IMG/VR virus record: IMGVR_UViG_3300035430_000143
Coordinates: 1 to 27,214 of that record
DNA: 27,214 nt
DNA from: a virus
Direction: 5' to 3' (one strand)
Under the pieces are notes generated by a model that was not told the origin of the DNA, did no database searches, and saw nothing but the letters and a program-made list of their open reading frames with translations. Shown here in pieces: positions 19,568 to 24,285 of this stretch; the stretch's first letter is position 1, and each line of letters starts with the position of its first letter. The position numbers and the translations under genes were made by a program.

Positions 19568-19948
19568 CTAGCCGAGATCGATGGACACTCGTATGTCACC
19601 AGCCACCTGTACTTGCGATCTATCTATAGGCTTAAAGCCAGCACGATCGAGAATGTCCTTAGATGCCTCAAGCTGGACATACTCGCTCTTTGCACCTGTA
19701 GCTAACTTCATAACCCTCGCAGCTGCTAACGTAGCATTTAATCCCAACTGTTCTGTCACACATTTCATCATGTACTGTTGCACATGAGGTTGCTTAAGAG
19801 CCTTGCTAGCACTGACGCGACCGCTATCACCCTTAGCGTACCCAGCTTCAGCAGCTGCTTTAGTGACAGTGCAACCAGAAGCTACAAGTGTATCAACCAA
19901 AGCTATCTGTTTAGGTGTCAGTTTCTTTGTATTTAGAAGTTCAGTCAT
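19568..19948 (-). CDS. terS: Terminase small subunit
   Basis: 126 residues from the ATG at 19948, chosen because it has a good RBS (agagga, 5 bases upstream) and begins at the conserved domain; the frame is open further upstream but that part runs through the polypurine tract. Residues 8-57 (LTPKQIALVDTLVASGCTVT, KAAAEAGYAKG, then a Lys-Ala-Leu-Lys-Gln-Pro-His-Val-Gln-Gln-Tyr recognition part) form the N-terminal helix-turn-helix of small terminases. The remainder is oligomerisation helices (VQLEASKDILDRAGF) and a short beta tail. It would recognise the packaging site and load terL. It is the first gene of the leftward block. Confidence 0.87.
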   Translation of the reverse strand: MTELLNTKKLTPKQIALVDTLVASGCTVTKAAAEAGYAKGDSGRVSASKALKQPHVQQYMMKCVTEQLGLNATLAAARVMKLATGAKSEYVQLEASKDILDRAGFKPIDRSQVQVAGDIRVSIDLG

Positions 19949-19963
19949 TGTATCCTCTGTAAG

Positions 19964-19986
19964 CCCCCCTCTCCCTCTCTCCCCCC
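19964..19986. other. Polypyrimidine/polypurine tract
   Basis: 23 consecutive pyrimidines on the plus strand: six C, a mixed C/T core, six C. It is nearly mirror-symmetric. On the minus strand, which is the terS mRNA sense, it is a G-rich purine run with three G-tracts of 6, 3 and 6. It may form a triplex or G-rich structure, or be part of a packaging signal beside terS. Confidence 0.7.
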
Positions 19987-20011
19987 ATTTCGACACCAAA
20001 ACAGCTATCTC

Positions 20012-20017
20012 TGTCAA
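20012..20017 (-). promoter_or_regulatory. Possible -35 box for the leftward virion block
   Basis: A perfect TTGACA on the minus strand, 2 bases from the palindrome at 20019-20037 and 64 bases upstream of the terS ATG. No good -10 is visible 16-18 bases further on, so this is a weak call. Confidence 0.25.
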
Positions 20018-20018
20018 G

Positions 20019-20037
20019 TAGTGACGTAACGTCACTA
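20019..20037. promoter_or_regulatory. Candidate operator: 19-bp perfect palindrome plus half-site
   Basis: TAGTGACGTAACGTCACTA is a 9-1-9 perfect inverted repeat. The half-site ACGTCAC occurs again at 20051-20057, exactly 22 bp from the one inside the palindrome (about two helical turns). The pair lies between divergent TTGACA boxes, where a repressor or activator could control both directions. The XRE-type protein at 22221-22475 or the HTH proteins at 22891 and 26011 are candidate ligands. Confidence 0.65.
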
Positions 20038-20072
20038 GTGCAACAACCCCACGTCACATACAACATGTAGTA

Positions 20073-20099
20073 TTGACATGCCATTCACCACTATAAACT
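20073..20099 (+). promoter_or_regulatory. Possible sigma70-type promoter for the early operon
   Basis: TTGACA at 20073-20078 is followed by TATAAA after 13 bases or TAAACT after 15 bases. The -35 is perfect but the spacing is short. It points at the first early gene with a leader of about 240 bases. Confidence 0.35.
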
Positions 20100-20219
20100 A
20101 CTACAAGCCCAGCATCAGTTGCACTCGATCATTTGTAGCATTACTCATTGCTGGCGGTTCTCTTGTATCACAAACCCCTCCCACGCATTCCTTTATCCAT
20201 CGCTACAGGGTCGGAACGG

Positions 20220-20320
20220 TTGCAAGGGACGCTTCCGCTCTTCGCCCTTGCAAACGTCAAGCGCACAAGTGCGTCCTCGCCTGTGCGGTGGAGTCGTCAT
20301 CGCGAGGGAGGTCTTCGCGA
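20220..20320 (+). promoter_or_regulatory. GC-rich structured 5' leader of the early operon
   Basis: Perfect stems: TTGCAAGGG (20220-20228) with CCCTTGCAA (20245-20253); CGCAC with GTGCG within 20262-20273; CCTCGC (20275-20280) with GCGAGG (20302-20307). A competing stem TCGCGA (20300-20305) with TCGCGA (20315-20320) uses the same bases as the third. The RBS aaaaggag follows within 10 bases. This could be a translational switch, a binding site for a regulatory protein, or a small RNA. Confidence 0.6.
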
Positions 20321-20340
20321 CACAAAAGGAGAACCTAGAA

Positions 20341-20739
20341 ATGACTAAGACTACAAATGAACTCGTACAACTAAAGCTTCAAGTTATAAATTATCACAGT
20401 GGTGAAAACACTGACTATCTACAAAAGTCAATTGCACACGATGCTTGTTACACTAGCCACAACAGCCTCAAGTACAAACGCACACAGATAGCTGACCAAG
20501 TTGTCGAAATGGAGAGAGCTATGAAAGACGACAAAGAACTGCTAGCTGACTCCATCGCTCGAAAGATCGATCGAATGGAAGGTGAGCTTGCTCACCTCAT
20601 AGACCGTCACCAAGCTGACCGCGACGTTTACTGCATCATGCACGATGGCATCGAATGGTCACCGCAAGGTAACTCACGCAACGTAAGTGGTGACTTAGCC
20701 AAGAAGGTAGCTCACTACAAGAAGTTGGTGGCGGCGTAA
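20341..20739 (+). CDS. First early gene, hypothetical coiled-coil protein, 132 aa
   Basis: Not recognised. Start chosen at the ATG with RBS AAGGAGAAC 6 bases upstream; the frame is open 74 codons further back, but only through the structured leader. The protein starts MTKTTNELVQLKLQVINYHS and has a long charged helix (QIADQVVEMERAMKDDKELL, then ARKIDRMEGELAHLIDRHQA) likely to be coiled coil, and a C-terminal HYKKLVAA. No catalytic motif is evident. As the first gene after the control region it would be the earliest product, a place often used for host-takeover proteins (inference). Confidence 0.75.
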   Translation: MTKTTNELVQLKLQVINYHSGENTDYLQKSIAHDACYTSHNSLKYKRTQIADQVVEMERAMKDDKELLADSIARKIDRMEGELAHLIDRHQADRDVYCIMHDGIEWSPQGNSRNVSGDLAKKVAHYKKLVAA

Positions 20740-21840: not shown

Positions 21841-22060
21841 CAGATCAACACCTAAATTTACACGCAGAGACTTCGAGTTTATTGCAGATTATATTATGCC
21901 ACACATGAGTTGGGCGACTGGCATCGAGCAAGTAGCTGATGAACTCAAACGCACCAATCCTAATTTTAATTGGGACAAATTTGTAGATCGTGCTACCAAG
22001 AATTGGGAGGATGAACATTTGAGAGGACAGGAGAATCTAAATGACGACATCCCATACTAA
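21833..22060 (+). CDS. Small helical protein ending in an SSB-like tip (DDIPY)
   Basis: 75 residues. FTRRDFEFIADYIMPHMSWA, then IEQVADELKRTNPNFNWDKF, is a pattern I know from small marine-phage proteins of unknown function (R-x-x-F-x-x-I-A, then NPNF and F-x-x-A). The last residues are NLNDDIPY. This is close to the DDIPF tip of bacterial SSB proteins that recruits repair and replication enzymes. RBS aaagga is 6 bases upstream. It overlaps the zinc-finger gene by 20 bases. Confidence 0.72.
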   Translation: MANRSTPKFTRRDFEFIADYIMPHMSWATGIEQVADELKRTNPNFNWDKFVDRATKNWEDEHLRGQENLNDDIPY

Positions 22061-22220
22061 ACTTTGTAAGGAATGTGGAGGTGATGGGTACATCGAGTAC
22101 GATGTGCCTACCTCACACGGATTTGACAGAGATGTTGGATACATAGATAGTGCCACCGAAGTATGCCCTGAGTGTCAGGGTCTTGGCATTGCGTATGAAG
22201 AAGAGGATATTAATTTCTAA
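22041..22220 (+). CDS. DnaJ-type zinc-finger microprotein, 59 aa
   Basis: Translated by eye. MTTSHTKLCKECGGDGYIEY is followed by a 25-residue spacer and EVCPECQGLGIAYEEEDINF. The two CxxCxGxG motifs (CKECGGDG and CPECQGLG) are the repeat unit of the DnaJ central domain, which in full-length DnaJ has four such motifs binding two zinc ions. Here only one zinc site is encoded, without a J-domain or substrate domain. Good RBS (aggagaa) 6 bases upstream. Role unknown; single DnaJ-type fingers occur in phage replication regions and may mediate protein contacts. Confidence 0.82.
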   Translation: MTTSHTKLCKECGGDGYIEYDVPTSHGFDRDVGYIDSATEVCPECQGLGIAYEEEDINF

Positions 22221-22475
22221 TTGCCCAACACAAGGCTGTCTCACAATTACAATGAGATGATTCAGATGCTCATTGATGCGAGACATAACAAAGGATTAAG
22301 CCAGCCGCAGCTGGCTAATATCATAGGCTGTACCGAATCATTGATTCATAAATGGGAACAGCACAAGAGAGTACCGTCTGGTTTCTTTCTTATGTGTTGG
22401 TTAGAGGCATTAGGATATGACATCGAAGTCACGAAAAAAGAAAGTAACAATAACGTGCATCAGTTGCGAGAGTAA
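22221..22475 (+). CDS. XRE-family HTH DNA-binding protein
   Basis: 84 residues from a TTG start directly after the preceding TAA; the ATG at 22257 is an alternative. Residues 13-57 (MIQMLIDARHNKGLSQPQLA, NIIGCTESLIHKWEQHKRVP) form a classical five-helix XRE/Cro fold: GLSQPQLANIIG gives helices 2 and 3 and the recognition helix, and the WE pair is typical. It probably binds an operator; the palindromes at 20019-20037 and 23437-23450 are candidates. Its last 59 bases overlap the next, four-cysteine gene in another frame. Confidence 0.85.
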   Translation: MPNTRLSHNYNEMIQMLIDARHNKGLSQPQLANIIGCTESLIHKWEQHKRVPSGFFLMCWLEALGYDIEVTKKESNNNVHQLRE

Positions 22476-23091: not shown

Positions 23092-23453
23092 AATCGATAG
23101 GTCGAGCAGTACAAGATGATGTCTGGGCAAAGAGTCTAAGCAGATCATCGCATGAAATTTATTCAGAAGACAGACAGAAGCAAAGGGAGGCCAGCAAAGG
23201 CTGGTCTCCTGATACCCTCAAAGTAATGGCAAAGCGTATCAAAGATCGAGACTACGTTGGTCACAATTATTTGTGGGGCAGAGAAGCTATTGAAATGATT
23301 AACAAAAACCTGTTGACTGAGGCAGATCTAGATCCACATCGAAGTGGATACGCAAGATTATTACGCCACACATACAGTGAATTGGTTGCAGAATCTATGC
23401 TGAAAAAACTAATTGATCAGCATGATAAAATTAAAAGTGACGCAACGTCATAA
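23088..23453 (+). CDS. Hypothetical protein, 121 aa
   Basis: Not recognised. Start taken at the ATG that overlaps the preceding stop (ATGA); a TTG four codons earlier is possible but unneeded. MKSIGRAVQDDVWAKSLSRS is followed by a charged, helical sequence (DTLKVMAKRIKDRDYVGHNY, then HTYSELVAESMLKKLIDQHD). The last codons, SDATS, coincide with the second copy of the palindromic element (23437-23450). Predicted soluble and helical. Context suggests a role in DNA replication or recombination. Confidence 0.7.
   Translation: MKSIGRAVQDDVWAKSLSRSSHEIYSEDRQKQREASKGWSPDTLKVMAKRIKDRDYVGHNYLWGREAIEMINKNLLTEADLDPHRSGYARLLRHTYSELVAESMLKKLIDQHDKIKSDATS
23437..23450. promoter_or_regulatory. Second copy of the candidate operator core
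   Basis: GTGACGCAACGTCA differs from GTGACGTAACGTCA at 20021-20034 at one position only. It lies at the 3' end of the preceding gene and 65 bases upstream of the exonuclease start, at the head of a 61-base gap. It may control the recombination module separately from the first part of the operon. Confidence 0.55.
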
Positions 23454-23514
23454 CTAAAATCTGCACCTGTCATGGTAAAGTGTTTCAATAAAAATAATAA
23501 AAGGAGAACGTAAC

Positions 23515-24285
23515 ATGGAACGTAAAGGTTTCATTGGTGGCAGTGACTGCACCAAAATCATGGAAGGCTATTGGCTCGAACTCTGGAATGTAAAGACAGG
23601 TCGTGAAGAACCAGAAAGCTTAGTGTTTAATTTACCAGTGCAGTTGGGTCGGCACACTGAAGACTTCAATTTAAAATGGTTTGCCGCAAACGAGGGCAAA
23701 CAAGTTGTTGCACAGCAGCGTGAGTTTACTGGGACTGTTGGTAATGTGCCAGTCAAAGGCACGATCGATGGTGCTATACAAGGTGAAAGAAATATTATTG
23801 AAGCCAAACATACAAACAACTTCTATAATATGGACAAGATGTTAGATCGATACATGCCACAGCTACAGTTCTACTGTCACATGGCAAAGGCAGAGGGTGT
23901 GTATCTGTCTGTGATATTTGGGAACAGCAACTGGGAGTGCATACATGTCAAGTACGATGAAGACTATTTCAATTCTATGTGGGCAGTGGTGTCAGACTTC
24001 TGGGGTTACGTTGTGCGCGATGAACAGCCTGTTGGAGTTGAGACAGAGAAACTATCAAGACTATCAATTGCGTTGGATGATATGGAAACACGTGACGCAT
24101 CATTCGACAACAGCTTCGTTGATGCAGCAGTCACCTACATTCATGGCTATGAACAAAACAAAGTCTTCAAGAATGCTGAGAAAGACCTCAAGCAAATGGT
24201 CAGTGATAACGAACGAGAAGTTTATTGCGACCAACTCACCGTCAAGCGTGACAAACGCGGACATCTTAGAATAACAAGACGATGA
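23515..24285 (+). CDS. YqaJ-type recombination exonuclease
   Basis: 256 residues. FIGGSDCTKIMEGYWLELWN gives the IGGSD motif with the first acidic residue. NLPVQLGRHTEDFNLKWFAA gives the G-x-x-x-E motif, GTIDGAIQGERNIIEAKHTN gives the catalytic Asp and the ExK, and a Gln/Tyr segment (MPQLQFYCHMA) corresponds to motif V. These are the landmarks of the lambda-exonuclease/YqaJ viral recombinase family. It degrades one strand of double-stranded ends so the ERF annealing protein encoded at 24793 can pair them. Conserved RBS; separated from upstream genes by a 61-base gap carrying the second palindrome. Confidence 0.9.
   Translation: MERKGFIGGSDCTKIMEGYWLELWNVKTGREEPESLVFNLPVQLGRHTEDFNLKWFAANEGKQVVAQQREFTGTVGNVPVKGTIDGAIQGERNIIEAKHTNNFYNMDKMLDRYMPQLQFYCHMAKAEGVYLSVIFGNSNWECIHVKYDEDYFNSMWAVVSDFWGYVVRDEQPVGVETEKLSRLSIALDDMETRDASFDNSFVDAAVTYIHGYEQNKVFKNAEKDLKQMVSDNEREVYCDQLTVKRDKRGHLRITRR

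Follow-up and report, generated by a model that had tools for sequence, protein, structure and literature searches.

A predicted operator, conserved beside terS, and its probable XRE-type reader in uncultured marine podophages

What is the role of a perfect 19-bp palindrome lying in the gap between the leftward and rightward genes of a marine phage? The question is raised by a record of 27,214 bp, analysed here in its entirety and called the window, which belongs to an uncultured marine podophage lineage. Podovirus-like structural genes run leftward from terS. The early block runs rightward and encodes an XRE protein, a RusA-like resolvase, a YqaJ exonuclease, an ERF annealing protein and a possible SSB. 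By terL, Pelagibacter phage EXVC031P Hodr (OQ414635) comes closest among cultured relatives, with 66% identity; at the DNA level, a comparison of the region with cultured phages gave no similarity match. The features of the gap are as follows.

19568–19948, minus strand: terS, small terminase subunit (PF03592), the first leftward gene
20341–20739, plus strand: first rightward (early-side) gene, function unassigned, from the gene scan
20019–20037, no strand assigned: putative proximal operator, the perfect 9-1-9 palindrome TAGTGACGTAACGTCACTA, from sequence and conservation in relatives
20041–20059, no strand assigned: putative distal operator, decayed, with the half ACGTCAC (20051–20057) retained in a 22-bp register with the palindrome; from sequence, with a scoring copy at the same register in 17 of 58 relatives

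The palindrome reads TAGTGACGT-A-ACGTCACTA. Its ACGTCAC (20029–20035) occurs a second time at 20051–20057, offset by exactly 22 bp, so that both elements of the original prediction, a 9-1-9 palindrome and a half-site 22 bp on, are found in place. That prediction also held such a palindrome to be very improbable by chance in a gap of this size. With dinucleotide shuffles, a perfect 9-1-9 palindrome arises in the 392-bp gap with P = 0.00075, or 0.005 if any loop of 0–5 nt is allowed. A chance origin can draw on the whole-window expectation, about 0.17 perfect 9-1-9 palindromes per shuffled window, and the gap statistic alone leaves it merely unlikely. The question is settled by position and sequence conservation in dozens of divergent relatives, which refutes chance and leaves it next to no credence.

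This conservation was assessed in 80 terS loci fetched from viral_contigs, out of more than 590 contig stretches that encode a terS relative. Of the 67 loci in which 120 bp or more lie upstream of terS, a search of the 250 bp on that side with up to 5 mismatches gave a candidate site in 57; a few of these stand at 4–5 mismatches, and by its score one (L035) is spurious. In the orientation of terS, the family consensus is WAGTGACGYNRCGTCACWT. The check proposed originally, a search for the motif at the same place in related phages, thus returned it from dozens of genomes, at a fixed position beside terS. Other searches were negative: the exact 19-mer TAGTGACGTNACGTCACTA has no match in a scan of the viral contigs, and a literature search for the motif found none. 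A looser scan gave nine stretches, several of them from unrelated or GC-rich phages, probably by chance. Within the window, the 19-mer at up to 3 mismatches has a single other match, at 1171, inside coding sequence.

The position of the site is as constrained as its sequence. When 58 distinct loci are aligned on the TTGACA box between the palindrome and terS, a strong copy ends 1 nt before the box in 35 and directly at it (0 nt) in 3, making 38 of 58; a copy lies 22–23 nt away in 17. Elsewhere in the 0–49 nt range there is one case, at 11 nt. The distal copy is the strong one in the L004 and L016 groups, where a weakened copy, read by eye, retains the 1-nt docking. Because copies in relatives sit, with that one exception at 11 nt, at the fixed positions of 0–1 and 22–23 nt, the phased half-site of the window is best described as the decayed second, distal operator of a pair, as far as comparison of sequences can tell. 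The palindrome is absent in 9 of the 58 relatives carrying XRE. A search of the motif-minus phages for another shared palindrome found none; in six of them (L033, L035, L054, L080, L203 and L204), TGTGCG or TGCG stands immediately before TTGACA, possibly as a replacement element.

Two hexamers frame the operator pair.

20012–20017, minus strand: TTGACA box of the late side, separated from the palindrome by 1 nt and nearly invariant in relatives; candidate −35 of a terS promoter
20073–20078, plus strand: TTGACA box of the early side, with 55 bp between the two boxes and no −10 behind it (sequence, relatives and promoter scan)

The palindrome had been placed between divergent TTGACA boxes. Outward-facing boxes do flank it, but their reading as divergent promoters is just half supported because neither has a conserved −10. 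A sigma-70 promoter scan of 19900–20400 returned no promoters, and TTGACA followed by a −10 at 16–18 nt is not found on both strands. Late-side −10 matches in relatives are no better than in shuffles (3.03 vs 2.88), and behind the early-side box no −10 is visible in either the window or the relatives. The separation between TGTCAA and TTGACA is mostly 45, 53–56 or 74–75 bp in relatives, that is, in steps of whole helical turns: the operator is locked to the late-side box, and the early-side box shifts by 10 and 20 bp. Since it both lacks a −10 and shifts in this manner, the early-side box is unsupported as a promoter. The palindrome-less Hodr, for its part, carries TTGACA-N17-TATACT before terS.

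The leader of the rightward operon (20205–20345, plus strand) is structured, at −59.9 kcal/mol and a z-score of −2.8; its main hairpin is kept in six sequences with a few compensatory changes, and Rfam gave no match on the window, leader included.

Scanned with a weight matrix of the family, the window yields one more strong copy beyond those discussed above.

23435–23453, plus strand: putative second copy of the operator, AAGTGACGCAACGTCATAA, lying 61 bp ahead of YqaJ, found with the family weight matrix and kept before YqaJ in relatives
23473–23481, plus strand: candidate extended −10 (TGG-TAAAGT), 22 nt past the 23435 operator; in relatives, read by eye, TGG-TAGGGT occupies this position
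23515–24285, plus strand: YqaJ/RecE-like exonuclease, the first gene past the second operator, from the protein scan

This copy scores 24.5, vs 28.4 for the palindrome. In 80 loci fetched by their XRE, the matrix finds 133 sites vs 0.8 expected. A census of 155 distinct sites, from full contigs and XRE loci, places 65 upstream of terS and 15 upstream of YqaJ. Another 8 precede the early genes R2, R3, R4 and the winged-helix gene, 6 lie before or inside the scaffold gene and 1 inside a virion gene; for the remaining 60, the nearest 330 bp contain no recognised start. In some relatives, two to three tandem copies 22–23 bp apart stand before an early gene, a helical register shared with the 17 loci beside terS. 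Since sites recur before terS, YqaJ and early genes, their distribution looks like a regulon rather than a packaging signal.

Four genomes (G003, G008, G009 and G017; for example L095:13386–13437) also have strong copies of the 19-mer where the scaffold gene starts. In G009 and G017 this gene holds two copies 33 bp apart, which encode ESDATS/ESDVTS repeats.

Between the late-side box and terS lies another conserved element.

19964–19986, minus strand: paired G-runs of equal length, GGGGGG AGAGAGGGAGA GGGGGG, equal in every relative with an intact element

The two runs always have the same length, covarying as n = 5, 6, 7 or 8 across about 70 relatives. They follow TTGACA at a fixed 24–26 nt and enclose a variable middle of 6–11 nt, with 17 types of length and middle among 71 loci. 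The pair is present even where the palindrome has been lost, and is absent in Hodr. Judged from its sequence, the pair could serve as a terminase site or belong to the transcript start. Thirteen of the fetched stretches (within L001–L080) begin at most 100 bp upstream of terS, several of them inside the G-run element, and these starts may be genome termini or assembly breaks.

The same observations bear on a role of the palindrome outside transcription control, as a component of a nucleoprotein complex for packaging (cos/pac) or replication. The site adjoins terS, the equal G-runs and the helically stepped TGTCAA/TTGACA pair stand next to it, and thirteen loci begin close by. Such a role is very doubtful nonetheless, for copies of the 19-mer also stand before YqaJ, before early genes and in other places, and the G-runs and TTGACA remain where the palindrome is absent. 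That the palindrome is an operator, set between leftward late (terS and structural) genes and rightward early genes, is strongly supported by sequence comparison. The original assignment of an operator to this divergent control region is upheld, since the site is conserved, docks at a fixed place and has copies at other genes; very probably, the palindrome is the landing site of a switch protein.

Which protein would read it? The original prediction named three phage HTH proteins, and one of them fits.

22221–22475, plus strand: small XRE-type HTH protein, 84 aa, the best candidate reader, from co-occurrence, structure model and trees

Among 37 distinct contigs that span terS to YqaJ, XRE is encoded in 36, the winged-helix family of 22891 in 20 and the HTH family of 26011 in 22; the latter two are too sporadic to be the reader. 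Co-occurrence by itself cannot single out XRE, because the R5 and RusA-like early genes are roughly as widespread, but XRE is the sole near-universal early protein in these contigs with a recognised regulator fold. Its predicted structure is a four-helix XRE domain with high core confidence (pLDDT 82.8). Foldseek matches it to HipB, C.AhdI, C.BclI, P22 c2 and SinR, all of them DNA-binding XRE proteins, with TM of about 0.6–0.7 and E of 0.004 or worse. Helix 2 begins with GLSQE in many relatives and GLSQP in the window; SQ in helix 2 is frequent across XRE proteins generally. In C proteins, the GLSQE motif contacts sigma-70 (PMC4824078).

Adjoining the XRE gene, a zinc-finger-like small protein (22041–22220, plus strand) weakly resembles Q-like antiterminators (E of about 0.004).

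The presence of sites can also be followed on trees. It needs 3 changes on the XRE tree vs 5 (3 of them forced) on the terS tree, and six site-less XRE proteins make up one starred side of the former, a tree of only 75 columns and long branches to which L203 and L204 are exceptions. These two encode an XRE with nearly the same recognition helix and have no site; they also break a tentative rule by which motif-minus proteins would carry A or S for T before that helix. Conversely, L043/G010 and L072 have the site and no XRE homologue. Their XRE slot (L043:1506–1784 and L072:1402–1728, both minus strand) is filled by an unrelated small protein, possibly HTH, for which no XRE homology was found, and the operator is kept. 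With exceptions running both ways, XRE as the binder is something we infer, and we consider XRE 22221–22475 the probable reader.

These exceptions are what one would expect if host identity decided, that is, if a host transcription factor read the site and the phage exploited it. Against this idea, GTGACGYNRCGTCAC occurs in just 7 of 289 alphaproteobacterial genomes, which may not be the host's group, at 1–2 copies each; no chromosomal regulon appears among the 289, and the matches inspected lie in GC-rich chromosome without similarity to the phage. Four MAGs containing contigs of relatives have no site, and site presence tracks the XRE clade, if on a tree of few columns and long branches. We regard a host reader, the chief alternative to XRE, as quite unlikely.

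Taking XRE as the reader, the palindrome would be the proximal member of a two-operator array that aids late transcription and the recombination genes, a reading from sequence to which we assign an even chance. One XRE dimer would occupy each 19-bp site, dimer binding being presumed. The proximal site would stand upstream of the late unit's −35-like TTGACA with a single base between them, and the other site two helical turns farther out. The docked dimer would most likely touch RNA polymerase and help late transcription start from a promoter without a good −10, in a working mode like that of lambda CI at PRM or of C proteins at the OL site. Through 23435 the same protein could also control the recombination genes, and in relatives its targets would include early genes.

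Given XRE as the reader, the effect on late genes is somewhat better explained by activation. Three observations favour it: docking is invariant at one base upstream of a −35-like box, as sigma-touching activators need; the late side has no −10 above shuffles, whereas the palindrome-less Hodr has both hexamers; and TGG-TAAAGT or TGG-TAGGGT stands 22 nt beyond the YqaJ site. The same operator and reader might serve repression only, silencing the late genes, and the early or recombination genes as well, for as long as XRE is neither diluted nor removed. The tandem arrays before early genes do resemble repressor arrays, and by eye several lie about 10 nt from TANTAA, where a dimer would cover the −35 position; those arrays could equally be repressor sites as well. 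The terS site, however, ends 0–1 nt upstream of TTGACA with invariant spacing and no overlap, and as the late side has no conserved −10 there is little unaided promoter to repress. Pure repression is unlikely in our view.

How far would late-gene activation by XRE carry? The original notion of a master switch between early and late transcription exceeds the evidence: the site keeps its place at the late-side box, the early-side box shifts, and a conserved −10 is missing from both. A wider scheme, in which the operator pair, the phased TGTCAA/TTGACA and the G-run pair form one compact element and binding of XRE governs late transcription together with terminase loading, thereby tying the onset of late genes to packaging, is a long shot. 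What emerges is a testable candidate regulator–operator pair for a large lineage of uncultured marine podophages, whose fixed docking predicts late-gene activation. If XRE is the reader, the regulon is legible straight from metagenomic contigs.

The array would be an operator undescribed before, of lambdoid or C-protein-like design as judged from its layout. Operators of lambda are odd-length palindromes in two to three tandem copies, about two turns apart, with a site next to the promoter −35. The phage sites share with lambda and P22 OR and OL their odd length, their two to three tandem copies and the −35-adjacent site, and CI and c2, like the protein here, have the XRE fold, P22 c2 being among the structural matches. 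Unlike them, the window XRE has just 84 aa and lacks a C-terminal domain for dimerisation or cleavage; the consensus is unrelated, lysogeny is not indicated in the 27-kb window, and the regulator gene lies within the early operon, away from the operator.

C proteins of type II restriction–modification systems (C.AhdI, C.Csp231I) are small single-domain XRE proteins like that of the window and are among its top structural matches. They use two tandem palindromic operators at the −35, where OL activates and filling of both represses (PMC4824078). Their boxes differ, being GACT-AGTC or CTAAG-N5-CTTAG; here the proximal copy is usually the strong one and sites serve several operons, and among the window proteins scanned there was no match to restriction–modification genes linked to the regulator.

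Terminase recognition elements lie next to or within terS, as in lambda cos and SPP1 and P22 pac (PMC9611059). This placement is relevant to the G-run pair; the palindrome, unlike such sites, is also found far from terS. The terS promoter of Hodr resembles the window in its TTGACA upstream of terS, its divergent genes and an XRE homologue in the early region, just 35% identical, and differs in having no palindrome, no G-run pair and a good −10 (TATACT).
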